The notes beneath the pieces were generated by a model. The model saw only the letters and a program-made list of their open reading frames with translations. It made no database searches and was not told the DNA's origin. A program made the translations under genes and the position numbers. From NCBI GenBank assembly GCA_025174535.1, contig JALBUN010000001.1, forward strand, positions 124,001 through 188,000: 64,000 nt of DNA, written 5' to 3'. Source of the DNA: Cantharellus purpuraceus. Its lineage: Eukaryota; Basidiomycota; Agaricomycetes; Cantharellales; Hydnaceae. Below are positions 54,054-64,000 of the stretch, one piece after another (the first letter of the stretch is position 1; each line of letters opens with the position of its first letter).

Positions 54054-56469
54054 TTAAAGATTCATAAGAGGGCCAGGTTTGTCTGGATAAGTGGAGTGAA
54101 AGTCGGAGACAGATTCAGATGCATGATCGAGTTCGGACACGGAGACCCATGAGGACTCTTCATCGGTGCCTTCGTATCCAGTCCATTTGACTAAGTACTG
54201 GAGCTTGCACTTGTATCAACAGTCGATCTTTGAGTCCAGGATCTCAGATATCTCATATTCATTGTCTCCTTCAATGATGATCGGGGGAGGTGGGGGTTGT
54301 GTGCGACCGGGGATCTCGTTTGTAGTAGCGGGTTCAAGCATTGATATATGGAAGACCGGATGAACTGCTCGGAAGTGGTCCAGGAGGCAGAGGGTGAAGG
54401 ACCTGCTGCCTGCATGAGCAATGACCTCATAAGGACCTAAGTATTTCTTGGAGAGTTTCTTCAATGGATGGGTGGTCCGGAAGTGTTCAGCCTTAATGAA
54501 TACTTTGTCTCCAATTTGCAGGTCCGGAGCCAGAATGCGGCGTCGGTCTGTGGAGACTTGATATTGTTTCTGGGCATCGGAGATGGTCTCTTGGAGATGT
54601 TGGTGTAGTTGATCGAGGTCGGTTACGAATTGGCGGGCTTTGGTGGATGCAAGTTCTTTCTCAGGGTGGACGGAGATGTTCGGATGATAGCCTTTATTAG
54701 CAAAGAACGGAGAGATGCCAGTAGTCGCGTTCAGAGTGTTGTTGTAGGCAAACTCTGTGATCGGAAGTAGATCAGCCCAGTTGTCTTGTTGATAGTTACA
54801 ATAGATTCGGAGATATTGTTCCAGGGACTGATTCATTCGTTCCATTTGTCCATCTCCTTCAGGATGGTATCTGGAGGTGAAATGAAGCTTCATGTCGAGA
54901 GCCTTTCCTAATGTGCGGAAGAAGGAGGACACGAACTCCGAGCCCCGATGTGACATGCGATGGGACTCCGTGTTTAGAGAATACGTGGAGAATGAACAAT
55001 TTAGCTAGTGAGGTGGAGGTGATGGTGTCATGCGTCGGAATAAATAGTGATTGTTTAGTGAACCTGTCGACAATCATGAGTATGGTGTTGTATCCGAGCG
55101 ATGGGGGGAGCTTCTCTATGAAATCCATGGAGATGGAGTTCCATGGTTGCTCTGGGACTGGAAGTTGCTTAAGCGTTCCATAGGGTTTGTGCCTTTGCGA
55201 TTTTGAGCGCATACAGGTGGTGCAGGAGTTACAGTAGTGTTGAATGTATTCTCACATTTTTGGCCATACGTAGTCTCGTCAGATTAATCCTTGTGTGCAA
55301 TTTTGCCTGAAATGGCCGGAGATCAGGTGATCATGATAATCCTGCAAAACTCAGAGTCGGAGACCGTTGGTGTCAGGGACATATAACTGGTTGTTGTGTC
55401 GGAGGTGTCCTTTGGGGTCAAGTGACCATTTCGGATCGGAAGGGTTGTCCAAGTGTTTAACTGCAATAGGATCGGATCGGAGTGATGAGCAGATGTCAGA
55501 GCAGAGTTGGTCGATGTCCATAATGGTGACAGCTCGGAGGGTGGGAGTCATGAGGGTGGATGCTCGTAGGGACGATGCCAGCTGCTCGTTAGTAAACACA
55601 AGATGAAAGTTGTGTGGGTTTACAGTGGCATAGTCGCTATTCCCCTCTTTAGGGTAGATGTCCCAGCGTCTAGTTAACACGTCGGGCTTTGCTCCGAGTC
55701 GACCAGGACGGAAACAGATAATGAGATTGAACTGAGATAGGTACTCGGACCATCGGACTTGTCTCCATGTGAGTAGATTTGTTGTGGAGAAGTATTCCAA
55801 GTTCTTGTGGTCCATTATGACGTCCACCGGATCGGAGGGACCTTCAAGGTAGTGTCTCCATATCCGGAAGGCTTCATATATGGCAAGGAGCTCTTTGTCA
55901 TGGACGTCATAGTTCAGTTCGGAGGGCGTAAATGTACGCAAGTGAAAAGCGATTGGGTGGACTTGTCCGTCGTCCGGAGAGATGATGGACAGGATTGCGG
56001 CAAGTGCATAGTCGGAGGCGTCGGTCTCTAATAGGATAGGAACATCTGGAACCCAATGAGTCAGTATCAGAGCGGAAGTAAAGGCCTTCTTCAAGGTCTC
56101 AAAGCTCTGTCTACATTCATCAGTGAAATTCCATTGGGTACCCTTCCTAGTGAGTCGGGTGAGCGGAACGGTGATATCAGAGTAGCCGTGAATGAAGTGG
56201 CGGTAGAAGTTGGCGAACCCTAGGAAGGACTGTACGTCCTTGACTTTCTGGGGTTCCGGCTATTCCTGTATGACTTTGATTTTGTCATCAGACATTGTCA
56301 ATCCTGCCGGGGAGAGGATATAGCCTAGGTATTCAACTGAGTCGGAGTGGAATTCGCATTTGTCAGCACGGGCAAAGAGGCCATGCTTTCGGAGACGTCG
56401 GAGTACCTCTTGGACATGTGTCCGATGTTCTTCTTTGTTGTCCGAATATACCAGAATGTCGTCTAAGAC
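54054..56469 (-). pseudogene. pol: Element G Pol: RT (from catalytic VLDD) to chromodomain
   Basis: Reads leftwards from 56469: RT from the catalytic block VLDDILVYSD (usually YLDD), FLGFANFYRHF; RNase H (LLETDASDYALAAILS ... NYDVHDKELLAIYEAF); integrase zinc finger ending CTTCMRS; core (SMDFIEKLPPS, an Asp-bearing block near 54910-54960, and a YHPEGDGQMERMNQSLEQYL block); GDKVFIK and KKYLGPYEV; chromodomain (EISEILDSKID ... KLQYLVKWTGYE), ending at 54054. Stops include TGA codons where CGA is expected and TAG for TGG. RT is cut at its catalytic site by element X, so gag, protease and the RT N-terminus are absent from the window and may lie beyond 64000. Confidence 0.88.
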
Positions 56470-56843
56470 GCTTGTTCGGAATCATGTCAGTATACAATAT
56501 TCTGATGTATAGGAGATATACATCAGGATTTCAATGATACATAAAGCCAGGGAGTTACAATTTGGATATCTTAAAAGATTTCGGATGTGTGAAATTTTCA
56601 TAAATATAAACATATATTCTATATTTTAATAAACTTTAAAAGATAAGATATTTGGTTGAGATGAACATAATCATTTACATGGATATAATAGGAATGTATG
56701 TATTAATATAATTGGTATTATATAGGGTATTTAGATATACAAATACCAGGTGGGGATTAAAGATAGTTCAAATTATGTTATAAGTATTGTATAAGAAAGA
56801 ATCAATGATATTTGGATGTTCCTTCAAGAGAGTTGCCACCACT
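56467..56843. repeat. Long direct repeat of unit X, left copy
   Basis: 377 bp identical to 63622-64000 except for one A/G difference (GAGTTACAAT versus GAGTTGCAAT). It contains a 10-bp-stem hairpin CTGATGTATA-GGAGA-TATACATCAG near its outer end (56504-56528). Very A/T-rich afterwards, non-coding. Confidence 0.97.
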
Positions 56844-57565
56844 AAATCAGGAAAAAAAGAATTATTTTTGAGAATTATGCCAAAATATCAAAATATGTTT
56901 TAATCTAGTATATTGTGTAAAATTTGAGAATCATGTTGAAATATGAAAATAAGTTTGAATTGAAGTGTATTGTATAAAATTTGAGGAAAATAGGTTGTAC
57001 ATACGTATTTGTTGTATTTCTGAATAAGCGTCTTAGGAAAGTCTTGGAAACAAACACCTTTAATGCAGTGAAGCTACTTTTAAAACAAAGTAACTTAGTT
57101 AGGGCATAGTGGTAGATAATCTTGTTCTAACATAAGACTGTATGACTATCCCTCGTACTTTAGGGTGCAATACCATCAGATTTTCCATCCAAAGTGGTGG
57201 AAAATAATGATCCTGCTCCATACTAGTATATAACTCTGTTAATTTCTGTTCCAGAAGTGTGCCATCAGTACATCTGTATAAAGTCAGTGATTGGAACCTT
57301 GATATTTATAAAGGAACTTACCTCAGAAACAAATCATGGAGGGATCCTATCCAAGATATATACCAATCATTAACTCTTCTATCAAACTCTATCTTGCATT
57401 GAAGCATAAAAGAGAGCATCTTCATAATGCTTATAACATAAAAACATAATAATCATTTTATTAAGAAAGCAAGATGTATATATCTACTGCCTATACAAAA
57501 TATCAAATGTTCAGAAAAAATGATTATTATGTTTTTTCATTTCTGTTTTATAAGCAGAGAGGGAT
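56844..57565. other. Non-coding AT-rich leader of unit X
   Basis: About 720 bp with no open frame of note. The true left repeat may extend into it, because the second copy is cut off by the window end at 64000. A tRNA-like A-box/B-box pair near 57105-57180 was examined and rejected. Confidence 0.5.
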
Positions 57566-58659
57566 TTGAAAATGCCACAAATCTTTGAAGATATAAAAGC
57601 AATCAAAGGCTGGATAAGTGACAATGATGCACTGATAAAAGCTATGGCAAGTCAAATGGAAGTAAAAGATGAATTAATATCTGATCTTATAAATGTCAAG
57701 TCTTGGATGAGTGAAAAGGATAGGCAGATCACTATGCTTGAACAACAGGTTAATTCCCAGAGTCAGGAAATTCAGGTGCTTAAGAAACAGGTTGAGGAAA
57801 AAATACAATTATAACTACTTTGACAGACAGGAAAGAGAATTTAGATGAATGGATGAGTGAAATGAATGATATTGTATCAGGATTTGGAACAGATATTCAT
57901 AAACTTCAGAGACAGGTTAATAGGTGTGTTGCCACAATATCAGACCATGGAACAGATATTCATCAACAGGTCAATACACATAATGCAGAGAATCTTATAT
58001 TGGACTATAGAACAGATATTCATAAACTTCAGAAACAGGTTAATAGATGTATTGCAACAATATCAGACATTGTGGAATGGAAATCTGAAGTGCATGAGTG
58101 GATTGTAGAAACAGATGATACTGTAGTGGAACTTGGAACAGACATTAATAAACTTCAGAAACAGGGTGATAAATATAAAGCAATAATATCTGAGATTGTT
58201 GACTGGAAATTTGATATGAATCACTGGGCTGGAAAACAAGAACAGGAGGTAACAAGGTTACAGGAAAATGGTACCAGAAAGGTGACATTTAAGATAGTGA
58301 AAAGAGGTGTAGACTATATACTTATAGACTCAGATCAGTCTTGTAGACTAAATAGAATGGAATTATTCATAAATGGTGAGCCTAGAAAACTATCTACAAT
58401 ATATACTAGAAAGAATGAAATGTCATCATATGGCGTAGATGGTAATAGGATTAATTTTCAAACATGGAAGCAAGGAATGACTCAAGGTTTAAGGCATCAA
58501 GAAAAAAGGTCTAATGAACGATCTCAAACTCCTAGTTCAAGGCATCAAGAAAAAAGGTCTAAGGAACGATCTGATTCAGACTCTGATCAATCTGATTCAG
58601 ACTCTGATCAATCTCAAATTCCTAGTTCAAGAAAAAGATGTAGAGGGAGAACCCAGTAA
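57566..58659 (+). CDS. Coiled-coil protein with basic/RS-like tail (unit X)
   Basis: Two open segments, 57572-57814 (from the ATG) and the following frame to 58659, are separated only by a one-base difference in an A6 run at 57798-57803. One extra A would give a single protein of about 365 residues. Residues 1-80 are heptad-rich (MPQIFEDIKAIKGWISD...). Then a motif GTDIHKLQKQVNRC-ATISD recurs three to four times, giving a long coiled coil. A compact segment follows (VTFKIVKRGVDYILIDSDQ ... MELFINGEP) and finally a tail with two HQEKRS-ERS repeats, Asp/Ser repeats (SDSDQ) and RKRCRGRTQ. Coiled coil plus basic tail suggests oligomerisation and nucleic-acid binding, as in structural or nucleocapsid-like proteins. 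That is inference; no family was recognised. Transcribed in the same direction as the transposase. Confidence 0.6.
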
Positions 58660-59495
58660 TGTAAGCCTCCGAAGACGTAGGATACAAGGTCACCTTGGAG
58701 TGAATGGCTGTCCATGAGCAGTCTAATGATGTCCCTATCTGTCGTTTCATTTCTCCATGATTTCCCCTTTAGTAGCTCAACTTCACACGCCTCGTCAGCT
58801 GGCTTGATCAGCATTTCTTGCATCATTTGCTCCTCATATTGTGTCGTTGTGCCCTGGGAATTTGTATATAAAAAGGCGCTAGTTTTTGCCTTTGGAATCA
58901 AAAAACAAGTTTTCAGCCAACGCTCTAAGTCTACACTCTACATCACAATCCATCATCTCTACACTGAGGTAAAACACCTTGGTTCAACGATCAGATTTCC
59001 CTCCGCCACCGAGAGGTTGCTTCTCCTGAAACCAGCTTTCGCGTACCTCCCAACCAGGCTCCGCATTGTCATCCAGTCACAGAGCACGATCAGCCATCGG
59101 GACCGACCTTTTGCTCCCATCCTCATCCAACCACAGAGCACTATCCCACTTCCCTGTTACGAACCCTCGGCCTGATTGATCTTTGGAGTGCTGAACAACT
59201 GCGTTACACACCGTCTGCTTGCTAGGACCATTGCACGCAGGCTTATAGGATCTATTCCATAAGCGAACCGACACCGAGTGACATCATCGGGCTGCTCAAG
59301 GACAACGATTCAATTATCTGGTACACCATGCCGCTGCAAAGTCTCACCTACTGTCTGCTCAGTAAGTGCATCATTATCAACCCTCACAGCCAAAAGGCTG
59401 TCCTTTGATAATGTGATCAAACTGCTCCTGACAAGGTGACCTTCCATCTGACGTCATTACCATGATATGATAATATCCAATCGGCTGGTACACCT
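58660..59495. other. GC-richer non-coding insert inside unit X, with TATA box
   Basis: Composition jumps from A/T-rich to near-balanced right after the coiled-coil stop and falls back near 59500. A strong TATATAAAAAGGCGC box lies at about 58866-58880, followed by a C/A-rich stretch with CACTCTACATCACAATCC, typical of an LTR promoter/start region. Related 12-bp AAGGTCACCTTG-type palindromes lie near both ends (about 58686 and 59436). It may be a solo LTR or a MITE. No target duplication was found and no protein is convincing. Confidence 0.4.
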
Positions 59496-59765
59496 ATTTA
59501 GCTATGCAGCAAAGAATTTGGAATGAAAGACTGGCAAGATAGGAAACAAGGAACTGGTAGAAGAATGATAGATGAAAGGACAGGGAATTCTGTATGGGAC
59601 TTTGTTGTAGTATTCAGAACGAGTGCATGCATCTGGCTATTGACAACTTTAGAAAATATATATAATTCAATTTATAAATATTAGATAAAAATATGGACAT
59701 TCTGCTCTTCAGAACTATGCACATATCTAGTAAATAAATTTTATATATCCTTCTTTATTGACATC

Positions 59766-60256
59766 ATGGGTAAAGATAAGAAGTGCAATGATTGGAGTTC
59801 TCATGATCTTTGGGATTATGGTATAATGGTTGACACACAATGGACTAAACAGTTTTTTGAGACAGATTTTAGAGATATTACTTTAGATACTGATGATGAG
59901 ATCCTCAGTTTTGATTACAAAAAGATGATGTGAAATGTTTAAAGGAGTCTTCAAGAAAATTTTTACATACTTAGATAAGGAAGAATAAGGGAAAAAGTGC
60001 TTTAGAGGAAATGACAATACCTTGCATTCAAACATCGAGAAAAGTCCCCCAGTTTTACCTAGTAACTGTTACAAGAGAGCTTGATCATGCTATCACAGAA
60101 GGGTTGTTTTCAGAAGTGATAACAAATGTAAGGTGTTGTTTCCCTGTAACAGTAACAGGTATGAAACATATTAATAGTAGAAAGAATGTTCTACAGTGTT
60201 TTGAAGCATTTAAGAAGTTTGTAGATATACTTGATAGGAAATTAGATGAGAAATAA
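59766..60256 (+). CDS. Hypothetical 146-aa protein of unit X (2 exons)
   Basis: ATG 59766 opens MGKDKKCNDWSSHDLWDYG. The first exon ends at 59929; a GT-AG intron of 50 nt (59930-59979) leads to an exon running to TAA 60254-60256. The joined frame is 147 codons. The N-terminal half is acidic (DFRDITLDTDDEIL). The C-terminal half is a mixed domain (FYLVTVTRELDHAI ... CCFPVTVTGMKHINSRKN) ending in a charged helix. No known motif. The acceptor choice is the one that preserves frame; without splicing the first frame stops at 59933. It lies in a same-strand run of small genes upstream of the transposase. Confidence 0.5.
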
Positions 60257-60294
60257 TGAGTTTTGAAAATTAATATATAATAACCAGAGACACC

Positions 60295-60474
60295 ATGTTG
60301 AATATACCCGAGATTGGTGATAAGGTATCATTTATCAATGCAAGAACACAAATGACAGTGACAGGTATTGTTACATTAGTAACTGGCACTTTGTCAGATG
60401 ACACTTTGCTAATAACTGTTACTTATGATGACAATGAGATTCAGCTACCACTACGTGCACTACAACAAGTATAA
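60295..60474 (+). CDS. Hypothetical 59-aa beta-rich protein of unit X
   Basis: ATG 60295 (context CACC) to TAA 60472-60474, 39 bp after the previous stop. The product starts MLNIPEIGDKVSFIN and alternates Val/Thr/Leu (TVTGIVTLVTG ... LLITVTYDDNEIQLPL), the pattern of a small SH3-like or Tudor-like barrel. That fold is only a guess from the spacing of GDKVSF and the strand pattern. Confidence 0.45.
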   Translation: MLNIPEIGDKVSFINARTQMTVTGIVTLVTGTLSDDTLLITVTYDDNEIQLPLRALQQV

Positions 60475-60525
60475 GATAAATCAGATAAGTGAATATGCAA
60501 TATTTTTATTCACTCAAATGAAGGC

Positions 60526-60750
60526 ATGTGTGGTGATAGTGAAAAAATTCAAATTACTTGGAAGTGCAATCATATAACTACTACATCTGTAGTTACAGAT
60601 TGTAAGGATATTAAATGTCCTAAAAGCTCTGAACATTCAAAAAATACTCATCATGATACTAATGGTACTTATTGTTGTGTGAACAAAAGTTCAAATCTTG
60701 AAATTATCCAAGTGAAAATAGATGAAAAATGTTGTGAGTGTAGAAACTAG
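60526..60750 (+). CDS. Cys-rich 74-aa protein of unit X
   Basis: Starts MCGDSEKIQITWKCNH and carries nine cysteines (C2, C14, C26, C31, then CC, and a terminal CCEC) plus several histidines, ending CCECRN. Cys/His spacing does not fit a zinc finger class I know; it could bind metal or be disulfide-linked. No signal peptide is evident. Same strand as its neighbours and 51 bp after the 59-aa gene. Confidence 0.45.
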   Translation: MCGDSEKIQITWKCNHITTTSVVTDCKDIKCPKSSEHSKNTHHDTNGTYCCVNKSSNLEIIQVKIDEKCCECRN

Positions 60751-60768
60751 GACTTTTAAATCAACTCC

Positions 60769-61419
60769 TTATGAGGATTCTTTGAACATCTGATTTCTTA
60801 TACTTTGGAATATAATGTCAATAGCATTAGAACACTCTTCAAACTGAGCTTCTATGCTGTATCCAGAGGAAGGATATACAACAATTGAAACACCCTGATT
60901 GTTATTGGTGGTTTCATATAATTTTAACCTACCATCCTTAGTTATGATCATACCATAGATTGTGATTTTACTTTTCTTGAAAACTCTCTGCTGTTGTTTC
61001 AATGCAACAACCATTGATGTAACCAAATTGTTATACACATCACAGTTCTTACAAGTTTCCCCAGCAATAGAAATATCACACTTCTTGCCAGTTTCTCTAG
61101 CAATAGAAATATTACAACTAGGCAGATTATCCTGTTGCATGGTTTGCAGACTTGACATACAATGATTTTGTTGAATCCAGGTTGAATTACTTATTTCATT
61201 GCCCTTTTCAATCATCTTATTGTACAGTGCTTCTGGTGTTTTATCTCTTTCCTGAGAAACCAATCCAGCTGGAAAGAAGTCCTTTGGGGGATTTCTTAAT
61301 CTGAATTTTATGTAGATGGTGTCAGAGTCTATATACAAAGGATTTTCATCATCCTCTGGTTCTTTTTTAACAAAGACAGTAGATATTTTATGAACAACTT
61401 GCTTAGAGACAGACAACAT
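60769..61419 (-). CDS. Hypothetical 216-aa protein of unit X, opposite strand
   Basis: Uninterrupted from ATG (MLSVSKQVVHKISTVF) to the stop at 60769, convergent with the Cys-rich gene (18 bp between stops) and divergent from the transposase. It has an acidic KKEPEDDENPLYIDSD segment resembling a SUMO-site-plus-acidic motif, a short internal duplication (CNISIARETGKK / CDISIAGETCKN, 36-bp period in DNA), and a C-terminal alpha/beta segment (KITIYGMIITKDGRLKLYET ... SIVVYPSSGYSIEAQFE). No family recognised. Intact, unlike the transposase. Confidence 0.55.
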   Translation of the reverse strand: MLSVSKQVVHKISTVFVKKEPEDDENPLYIDSDTIYIKFRLRNPPKDFFPAGLVSQERDKTPEALYNKMIEKGNEISNSTWIQQNHCMSSLQTMQQDNLPSCNISIARETGKKCDISIAGETCKNCDVYNNLVTSMVVALKQQQRVFKKSKITIYGMIITKDGRLKLYETTNNNQGVSIVVYPSSGYSIEAQFEECSNAIDIIFQSIRNQMFKESS

Positions 61420-61515
61420 AGCTTCATAGAATAAATATTATTTAATTTAAAATTCAATTATCAAAAAAATGAACATATTTTTGTTTTACTGTAATATAAG
61501 AGTATCTTAGTCAAA

Positions 61516-62980
61516 ATGCCCTCAGACCAGCAAAAACGCACAAAGGAGCAAAAAGAGAAAGAGCAAAAAGAGAAAGAAGAAAAAGAGCTTCAGCAACTTA
61601 AAATGTGGAATGATCAAAGGGACAGAGCATATAATAAGTTGATGGACAATCATTGGAATTTTCTATACACAAAGTGGCCTGTCTTAGAACACAAAAATAT
61701 CATAGAACAAAACTAAAAGATATGAATGACATGGATGATGTAAAAAAAGTAGTATATAACAAGCTTGGACCAATACCAGTATTTTTCTTTCTTGTGTTAT
61801 TGTTTTCAGTTGAAGAACATTCTACACCTTATAGAGAGATAGAAAAAGGCTTGTTAGTACTATATCATCTACTCAAAGGTCCTACTTATGAAGAAATAGG
61901 AAATTTCATGCCATCAAGTAGCTTTTATGATGTTCATAAGGAATTTTATGGTCGTCTGCATCATCTTAACTTTGATCTAGATAAACAAGTTACTGATTCA
62001 CTGCGTACAATGTTCTCAAATATAATAATAAGGATATTATCAGCTCTTATAAAGAATCCTCCAAAAATGGAATCAGTGACATTACTTCTTGATGGTCATG
62101 ATACAAGAGGAATTTTGATTGGATCGACATCTGAAGAGGGGTACTCACATAAATTTAAAAGGCAGGATTTCGTACTCAAGTATGCATTGACATCAATCAA
62201 ATGGTTCTATTCACCTCACCTTCATTGGCATGTAAACTAAATCCTGATGCAAAAATGTTTGTAGAGATGGCTGTATGGAATAAAATAGATAAGAATGATC
62301 AGATAGGCTTTGATGGAGCTTATCCATCTGCTATTCCAGAAGTAGTAAAGGCAAGTATATTAAAGCCTAAGAACTTCTTTTATCCTTTTCGGAAGCCAAA
62401 AAATGTTGAACTTAAACCTGAAGAAAAGATTTTTAATAAGAAGTTTGGTGCCTTTCGTTCAACAGTAGAAGCATTCTTTGGAGGGTTTGGAATATTGTTT
62501 GAAAAATTTGATAATAAGAGATCTATTAGAACTACAAATCCTGCTGTCTTTAATCTGGAATTAAAGGTAGCATGTCTATTATGGAATATTAAGAAATTTG
62601 TAGAACTACGTAAGATCAAACCATCCCCTTATCATGAAAAATGGTGTGAACAATATTTTGATTACCCTGAGGAAGAGGACCCAGATATTGAGCCACCCAG
62701 ATCATTACTGGAAAGAGCAGAAGATGTTGACAAGATGACTCTATCTCAACAACGACTATTAGAAAGATGTGAGTATGATGTGGAGATGCATTATGAGACT
62801 GAAAATGAAGTAGAACAAATAATAAGGCAAAGAAAAAGGAAAGTACGTAGAATATTTAGTTAAATGGAAATGTTATGCAGAGAAAACTTGGGAAGCAACA
62901 TCAAGCTTTAAATCTACAGAATGTATTAAAGAGTATTGGAAAGACAATAGTAATAGTATTATTGTATACCTATGCTACAT
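61516..62980 (+). pseudogene. DDE transposase with C-terminal chromodomain (unit X; three frame breaks)
   Basis: Starts at ATG 61516 with a Lys/Glu coiled coil (KRTKEQKEKEQKEKEEKEL). After a one-base shift near 61705 comes a helical DNA-binding-like region (HSTPYREIEKGLLVLYHLL, PTYEEIGNFMPSS), a fungal transposase pattern. First catalytic Asp in LLLDGHDTRG (about 62090); a second shift near 62170; then FRTQVCIDINQMVLF; second Asp in GFDGAYP (about 62312); catalytic Glu in FGAFRSTVEAFFG (about 62467). The layout fits the DDE_Tnp_4/Harbinger-like group abundant in some fungi. A third shift in an A-rich run near 62845 opens a chromodomain (VEYLVKWKCYAEKTWE, then ECIKEYWKD). That domain would tether the enzyme to modified histones, as in chromovirus integrases. 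Breaks may be decay, tiny introns, or homopolymer errors in the assembly. Confidence 0.8.
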
Positions 62981-63045
62981 TCAACTGTAAATTTTTTTCC
63001 CAGAATAAAATTGAATATTTGTATGTTTTATACTTATAGGTATCT

Positions 63046-63543
63046 ATGGAGACTGATCCATTACTGAAACAGCGTCTCAATCAACAGTTTTACCAAAAGC
63101 CTTTTCACAGCAATCCACACCGGCTAGCTAATTGTACAACGTGTGACTGGTACCCCTTTGGACAGTATCTGGACCGTTCATATGCTGAAGGTGAAGTGTT
63201 CCAGCTTTCAAAGTATCCTCATATCAAATATGTATTTCTTGGTCTACAACCTGATAAAATAGGCTATAATGAAAGTGATCCTATTTTTGTAGCAGAATTT
63301 GCAGGTTTTCTGAATAAAACCAACAGATTTGTAAGTGGTTCTGATCCAACCTCTGGATATGCACACATTATAACCACACATGTGAATCAGGCGTTTGTTA
63401 GACAGCCAGGCCCAGATATAAATAGGCAGAAACTATATCTTGGCCGTACAGTGCACATGATCTACATAACTAGTATTGGTATACTATTGGCTTTGCTGTG
63501 TTGGACAGTGTCCAGACATACCAATGAAGATAAGAATTCATAA
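63046..63543 (+). CDS. Putative C-terminally anchored membrane protein of unit X
   Basis: 165 codons from METDPLLKQRLNQQF to TAA. A short cysteine motif (NCTTCDWYPFGQYLDRS) near residue 26 is followed by a soluble alpha/beta region (YPHIKYVFLGLQPDK ... HIITTHVNQAF). A strong hydrophobic span near residues 138-156 (HMIYITSIGILLALLCWTV) comes with a short charged tail (SRHTNEDKNS). No N-terminal signal peptide, so tail-anchored or type III topology is likely. An acceptor-like TTATAG lies just before the start, so an upstream exon is possible. A membrane protein is unusual cargo for a DNA transposon. No family recognised. It is the last gene before the right repeat. Confidence 0.6.
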   Translation: METDPLLKQRLNQQFYQKPFHSNPHRLANCTTCDWYPFGQYLDRSYAEGEVFQLSKYPHIKYVFLGLQPDKIGYNESDPIFVAEFAGFLNKTNRFVSGSDPTSGYAHIITTHVNQAFVRQPGPDINRQKLYLGRTVHMIYITSIGILLALLCWTVSRHTNEDKNS

Positions 63544-63621
63544 TGGCATGTCTAAATCTATGGAGAAAGAAGCTTGTTGATGATATAAGGTGATGATTTT
63601 TGTTTTTAAAATGACCTCCCT

Positions 63622-64000
63622 AGACGCTTGTTCGGAATCATGTCAGTATACAATATTCTGATGTATAGGAGATATACATCAGGATTTCAATGATACATAA
63701 AGCCAGGGAGTTGCAATTTGGATATCTTAAAAGATTTCGGATGTGTGAAATTTTCATAAATATAAACATATATTCTATATTTTAATAAACTTTAAAAGAT
63801 AAGATATTTGGTTGAGATGAACATAATCATTTACATGGATATAATAGGAATGTATGTATTAATATAATTGGTATTATATAGGGTATTTAGATATACAAAT
63901 ACCAGGTGGGGATTAAAGATAGTTCAAATTATGTTATAAGTATTGTATAAGAAAGAATCAATGATATTTGGATGTTCCTTCAAGAGAGTTGCCACCACTA
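63622..64000. repeat. Long direct repeat of unit X, right copy (cut by window end)
   Basis: Starts AGACGCTTGTTCGG after CTCCCT, and repeats 56467 onward with one substitution up to the last base of the window. Total length unknown. Confidence 0.97.

Follow-up and report, generated by a model that had tools for sequence, protein, structure and literature searches.

How does a mobile element come by two matching ends? The question is posed by a stretch of the Cantharellus purpuraceus genome 64,000 nucleotides long (GenBank assembly GCA_025174535.1, contig JALBUN010000001.1, positions 124,001 to 188,000 of the forward strand; hereafter the window, with positions counted from its first letter). 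Towards its end lies an element made of an interior, INT, that encodes a DDE transposase, and of two long direct repeats, M, one on either side. By comparing copies of this M-INT-M element throughout the assembly, we found a pattern that is new here: M is near-identical within an insertion and diverse between insertions, and the haplotype of M, in the sampled elements, is uncorrelated with that of the INT beside it.

A sequence-only reading of the window had noticed an AT-rich unit, with near-identical direct repeats of at least 377 bp, inside the reverse transcriptase (RT) of another element and had suggested a tandem array, a virus-like or plasmid-like replicon or a new class of element. The unit is AT-rich (33.7% G+C, against 46.4% for window positions 1-56466) and does interrupt a minus-strand Ty3/Gypsy-type RT, in its YLDD box (read by eye). 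That reading had also proposed a check, namely whether the RT resumes past the second repeat with a short target duplication, and this came out as foreseen: in the sequence beyond the window, the RT picks up again directly after the second repeat, with the duplication TAA/TAA outside both M. The window copy is therefore a single insertion, 7722 bp in total, and its membership of a tandem array is ruled out, although three arrays occur elsewhere in the genome. The uninterrupted host site, with one TAA, has 258 matches in the genome (≤3 mismatches). Insertions recur in the YLDD box of the Ty3-type RT, with ten matches that include an M end: nine left ends (the window’s included) and one right end, which belongs to an element in the opposite orientation on contig C11. 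The eight further M copies at this site are 93.6-98.1% identical to the window M.

M is 566 bp long, and its two copies in the window element (56467-57032 and 63623-64188, spaced by 7156 bp) show one difference in 566 positions (99.82% identity). It starts with GACGCTTGTTCGGAA and ends with TTCTGAAYAAGCGTC, an imperfect inverted repeat; its ends are GACGC...GCGTC, with 15-bp inverted repeats and 3-bp duplications. The first base of this terminal inverted repeat (TIR) is G, where PIF/Harbinger elements have A or G. All 12 solo M with both ends carry a 3-bp target duplication (a thirteenth, with a truncated end, was excluded from this count), and searches of the genome with the M ends (≤3 mismatches) gave 521 left and 638 right matches, while reversed control patterns gave 0. 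Short, non-coding, equipped with TIRs and a target duplication and present in high copy number, M has the features of a miniature inverted-repeat transposable element (MITE). Because it has its own TIRs, solos with 3-bp duplications and hundreds of copies, M is MITE-like and not a long terminal repeat (LTR).

The triplet duplicated is TAA or TTA (TWA) in 19 of 33 elements with a duplication and in 11 of 12 two-ended solos. This seemingly stronger preference of the solos came from a small sample picked by similarity and was gone in a wider count, taken from the first 100 of 314 exact M ends, where the triplet left of M was TWA in 29/63 solos and 11/18 element-left M (p=0.30, no difference).

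LTR retrotransposons also have long direct repeats that are alike at birth and leave many solos; their repeats end in TG...CA and are flanked by duplications of 4-6 bp. An LTR retrotransposon, or an LTR-like element copied through RNA by an RT acting in trans, would thus account for repeats identical at birth and for the solos. The ends described above do not fit that origin, one gene runs on the opposite strand, repeat and interior are inherited separately (below), and no primer-binding site or polypurine tract was seen by eye beside the repeats. Nor was an RT recognised: Pfam gave no match to one in seven of the eight open reading frames (ORFs) of at least 90 aa in the window element, or in the full transposase and a 429-aa coiled-coil ORF, the sole ORFs scanned from other copies. 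On the RT scan, the end structure, the opposite-strand gene and the independence of repeat and interior, we rejected this explanation, which we regard as scarcely credible. The sequence-only reading, which saw no RT in the unit, was right that it fits neither the usual TIR transposon nor an LTR element.

A survey of the whole genome (40.15 Mb in 50 contigs) recovered the further copies that the same reading had advised looking for. Patterns for the two inner junctions occurred 61 and 58 times and could be paired into 54 M-INT-M units; the junctions are 5.97-7.26 kb apart in 53 of these and 12.4 kb apart in one. Four M are each common to two units, in three arrays (on contigs C38, C44 and C45); the dimer on C45 represents one insertion site, since its outer flanks are both TAA. 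Compared by eye, INT ends are joined to M in 59/60 cases on the left and 56/56 on the right, the lone left INT end without M being a diverged copy on C45. Two elements, C7_293 (L057, L058) and C9_553 (L061, L062), have nearly the same flanks and clearly different M haplotypes and may represent one site hit in two host copies. C8_14 (L059, L060) and C29_78 (L021) share their flanks fully and may be a duplicated locus or haplotype. Three loci considered as elements with other cargo (L013, L016 and L017) proved to be M copies in host sequence with Ty3-type ORFs, with no INT between them.

Both M could be compared in 46 of the 54 units and, once five array-neighbour pairs had been set aside, 41 elements remained, 33 of them with equal outer triplets, that is, a target duplication. 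Left and right M of an element differ at a median of 1 site (mean 2.44), whereas the left M of different elements differ at a median of 12, and none of 10000 re-pairings gave a left-right sum as low as that observed. Among the 33 elements with equal triplets the mean falls to 1.33, with no difference at all in 16; the eight without equal triplets have 1 to 11 differences, as expected for recombinants. With hundreds of near-identical repeats in the genome, assembly or polishing might have equalised neighbouring copies. We consider such an artefact very improbable, as M of different loci are still about 12 sites apart, elements without equal triplets retain different left and right M, and contigs reach nearly 4 Mb.

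If the element moved as a block, M and INT should share a genealogy and sister elements should be alike in their left M; neither is seen in the sample. As a marker of INT we used its first 555 bp beside the left M, a mostly non-coding stretch available in 38 of the 41 elements, which shows 2.79 mean differences against 11.65 in the left M. Mantel tests found no correlation of this stretch with the left M (r=-0.05, p=0.68) or with the right M (r=-0.005, p=0.49), while left and right M were strongly correlated (r=0.89, 0 of 5000 permutations); an earlier pass on 18 elements was concordant (r=0.07, p=0.29). Even the 44 pairs of elements with an identical INT stretch have 11.25 differences in M. 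Since M is uncorrelated with INT while left and right M agree, M and INT are not inherited as one block in the sampled elements. Each element seems to have started out with one M in duplicate, taken from a diverse pool and untied to the INT lineage. M haplotypes are mosaics of shared variants; in mean M differences, solos are 12.7 apart from one another, elements 11.2 from one another and solos 14.0 from elements, the solos in this comparison having been picked by similarity.

These genetics might also arise if an M-INT-M block moved by cut-and-paste and gene conversion after insertion then equalised its left and right M, with exchange with dispersed M reshuffling the haplotypes. The mosaic M haplotypes, with variants that are mainly shared, accord with this, as do tracts of left-right difference in some elements and the recombinant look of those without equal triplets. 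However, fast homogenisation should erase left-right differences, and these are not below the level of INT singletons: in the same 24 elements, with equal triplets and at most two left-right differences, there were 15 differences in 27,168 bp of M against five singletons in 13,464 bp of INT. The numbers are small and eight of 32 matched elements fall outside this set; over 38 elements, INT has 15 singletons, a rate of 7.0e-4. Conversion, which serves as the null model, is disfavoured on these grounds, and we hold it to be unlikely. In mixed elements, one haplotype occupied the right rather than the left M in 7/9 cases (by eye), an observation too weak for use.

A further candidate is a replicative route, in which the transposase would join the single M of a circle to a new target and replication would duplicate that M, the circle’s M being reshuffled with the genomic pool between rounds. 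In a single step, such a copy-in cointegrate would yield both the identical M in direct orientation and a new 3-bp duplication. Yet M should then travel with INT, and extra rounds of exchange are needed to explain why the two are uncorrelated. Copy-in cointegrates are known for IS26 and Tn3-type elements, and the targeted route of IS26 keeps two parental copies; we know of no replicative use of a Harbinger-type transposase. For the IS26 family, both a copy-in and a targeted conservative route to cointegrates are described (PMC7885326). For the element here, we judge copy-in slightly less likely than conversion.

We tentatively favour, at somewhat short of an even chance, a route in which INT, as a circle with one M, enters the genome at a resident M that is duplicated by repair. 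INT would move with a single M, probably as a 7.16-kb circle produced by recombination between the two M of an element, and a solo M would be left behind. The one-M unit would re-enter at one of the many genomic M once its own M had been broken, perhaps by the transposase. A break in the circle’s M that is repaired from the resident M gives two resident copies: ends-in gap repair would copy the resident M to both sides, so that it would form both ends of the new element, and its older target duplication would then frame the whole. Dimeric units or unequal exchange would lead to arrays, and the transposase would insert M alone, as a MITE, elsewhere in the genome. Were elements to sit where solos once stood, the triplets at solos and at element-left M should be alike, as they are. 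Also in favour of this route count the near-identity of M within elements, its independence of INT, the INT ends almost always joined to M, the target duplications of solo M and the M shared by units in arrays. Simple crossing-over between a circle with one M and a solo M was rejected as the main route, as it predicts complementary mosaics, rather than equality, of left and right M.

Several points weigh against entry at a resident M. Established recombination biology, and not the data presented here, is the source of the gap-repair step; no circle was seen, no locus was found in both the solo and the full state, and no replication protein was recognised in the element. An element’s own right M was not among the nearest right M in 13 of 41 cases, and six of the 33 elements with equal triplets have 3 to 6 left-right differences, so that identity is not universal. 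Private M variants are also few at birth, where an old resident M should have more: the 41 elements have 12 common to left and right M (six of them in one element), 12 on the left only and 12 on the right only, while 13 solos have eight.

A broader interpretation, which we put forward as possible and give somewhat less weight than the route above, casts INT as a plasmid-like parasite living on a family of MITEs: it would home into resident MITEs, its entry would duplicate the MITE, its transposase would act partly like a homing endonuclease, and it would in turn supply the transposase that spreads the MITE. The ends of INT would then not belong to its own lineage, the mobile system would combine two lineages, one of the core and one of the ends, and the MITE would be the landing pad. 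The genetics of M and INT lend some support to the earlier suggestion of a plasmid-like replicon, which is opposed by the want of a recognised replication gene and of an observed circle.

The architecture itself belongs to a class that is already known, so the idea of a new class of element did not survive. As described for KolobokP (Kojima and Bao 2022, PMC9587614), those animal elements likewise end in long direct repeats that carry short TIRs themselves (11-18 bp in KolobokP) and have an interior with a DDD/E transposase, abundant solo repeats, arrays with a common repeat and target duplications at the outer ends of multimers; their repeats measure near 450 or 660 bp, compared with 566 bp here. 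The two are set apart by description, with a Kolobok transposase in animals and a DDE_Tnp_4-type transposase in this fungal genome. KolobokP has a His-Me finger nuclease downstream of the transposase (PMC9587614), whereas Pfam recognised none in the ORFs scanned here, where the orphan proteins and short ORFs could conceal a divergent one. One KolobokP family is reported to include 6 and 40 one-sided and three bare INT copies beside 90 monomers, taken as evidence for single-repeat excision; here INT nearly always has M on the tested side. The models that its authors discuss are unequal crossover and a circle entering a solo repeat, likened to IS26 translocatable units, and they describe the molecular pathway as unknown and a circular intermediate as still to be determined (PMC9587614). 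In the consulted parts of that paper, we noticed no analysis that set left repeats against right ones, or the haplotypes of repeats against those of interiors. Among the matches listed in the open-access literature, there were no eukaryotic cases of M-INT-M architecture besides KolobokP.

PIF/Harbinger elements and Tourist-like MITEs resemble the present system in their DDE_Tnp_4-type transposase, their 3-bp duplications, often TWA, TIRs starting with G and many small non-autonomous copies (PMC4482050). They differ in having one TIR pair (PMC4482050), where this element has terminal direct repeats; about half of its triplets are not TWA. Most PIF/Harbinger families also have a second ORF with a Myb/SANT domain, and Pfam matched none in seven window ORFs or in the coiled-coil ORF of another copy, ORFs below 90 aa lying outside the scan; because no such ORF matched, we call the element Harbinger-like and do not place it as a member. 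IS26 translocatable units and pseudo-compound transposons also pair a DDE enzyme with short direct repeats around a passenger, and their one-repeat circle entering an existing copy resembles the circle postulated here (PMC7885326). IS26, however, is bacterial and its repeats encode the transposase (PMC7885326), whereas the repeat M is non-coding and its two copies in an element are alike.

What the fungal element adds is a further host, another transposase type and evidence on mechanism. An architecture reported from one animal lineage (PMC9587614) is now found in a fungal genome, and its presence in both with different transposases implies multiple origins or a wider spread than thought. With so many units and solos in one genome, the repeats can be used as genetic markers; in the sampled elements, the core is inherited apart from the ends and a single template underlies both ends, which makes the mechanism testable. 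The findings thus bear on the open question of how such elements spread.

Table 1. Features of the element at the window locus (window positions).
Feature	Position	Strand	Remarks
Left target duplication, TAA	56464..56466		Partner at 64189-64191, beyond the window; one-TAA empty site
Left terminal repeat M, 566 bp	56467..57032	+	Own inverted repeats GACGCTTGTTCGGAA ... TTCTGAATAAGCGTC
Interior INT, 6590 bp	57033..63622	+	INT and one M together give 7156 bp, as in the postulated circle
Coiled-coil ORF with basic, repeat-rich tail	57573..58659	+	Frame broken in window; no Pfam match above cut-off
Orphan protein, 216 aa	60772..61419	-	Open in 6/6 copies
DDE transposase, IS5/Harbinger-like	61516..62860	+	Disrupted in window
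Chromodomain-like stretch, other frame, after end of DDE ORF	62838..62950	+	Read by eye, window copy only
Orphan protein, 165 aa	63046..63540	+	Hydrophobic segment near C-terminus (by eye); open in 6/6 copies
Right terminal repeat M, first 378 bp	63623..64000	+	End at 64188, 188 bp beyond window

The genes of INT (Table 1) were read in six complete copies, picked by similarity to the window M and not at random, which differ pairwise by 0.31-0.63%. As the sequence-only reading had claimed, the element encodes a DDE transposase, full length (449-454 aa) in three of the six. Relatives of this protein matched Pfam DDE_Tnp_4 (cut-off 24.8 bits) at 39.8 (P0002) and 34.5 bits (P0022), while the element’s own protein scored 21.4, below the cut-off. 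Residues D198, D272 and E324 are invariant across 31 transposase sequences and are the putative catalytic triad. A Foldseek search against the PDB gave no match at E ≤ 0.001 among the matches listed, the best being Tn5 transposase (5e-3). The chromodomain tail attributed to the enzyme holds for its relatives, in which a chromodomain was found; in all six copies, the DDE ORF ends short of the chromodomain at one common point, unlike other disruptions, which differ between copies, and this shared stop may be an inherited defect or a programmed frameshift.

The remaining cargo had been described as structural in type, a label that no match backs. Its coiled-coil protein with a basic tail stands as an ORF of 409-423 aa from the first ATG in two of six copies and is reduced to 80 aa from the first ATG in the window. 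The supposed membrane protein is the intact 165-aa ORF, its membrane segment being read by eye alone, and the minus-strand gene is confirmed as that for the 216-aa protein. Protein searches with these two orphans found no relative at E ≤ 0.001, and the predicted structure of the minus-strand protein had a predicted local distance difference test score of 34.5 and was put to no further use. Nonsynonymous to synonymous changes numbered 21:5 and 14:10 for the two orphan ORFs (summed over 15 pairs), numbers too small to reveal selection.

Between the coiled-coil and minus-strand genes, window positions 59767-60750 hold a string of short plus-strand ORFs (<95 aa), one of them Cys-rich by reading; a 93-aa ORF, the sole one of this run scanned, had no Pfam match. 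Repeats of 126 and 45-48 bp lie inside the coiled-coil ORF (window 57863-58237 and 58480-58572), and INT length varies from 6562 to 6848 bp among the six copies, at least partly in these repeats. INT also contains a second dispersed repeat (window 58733-59273), with 81-90% matches in L016, L017, L019, L022 and L025; at L016, one M copy is inserted in another copy of this repeat.

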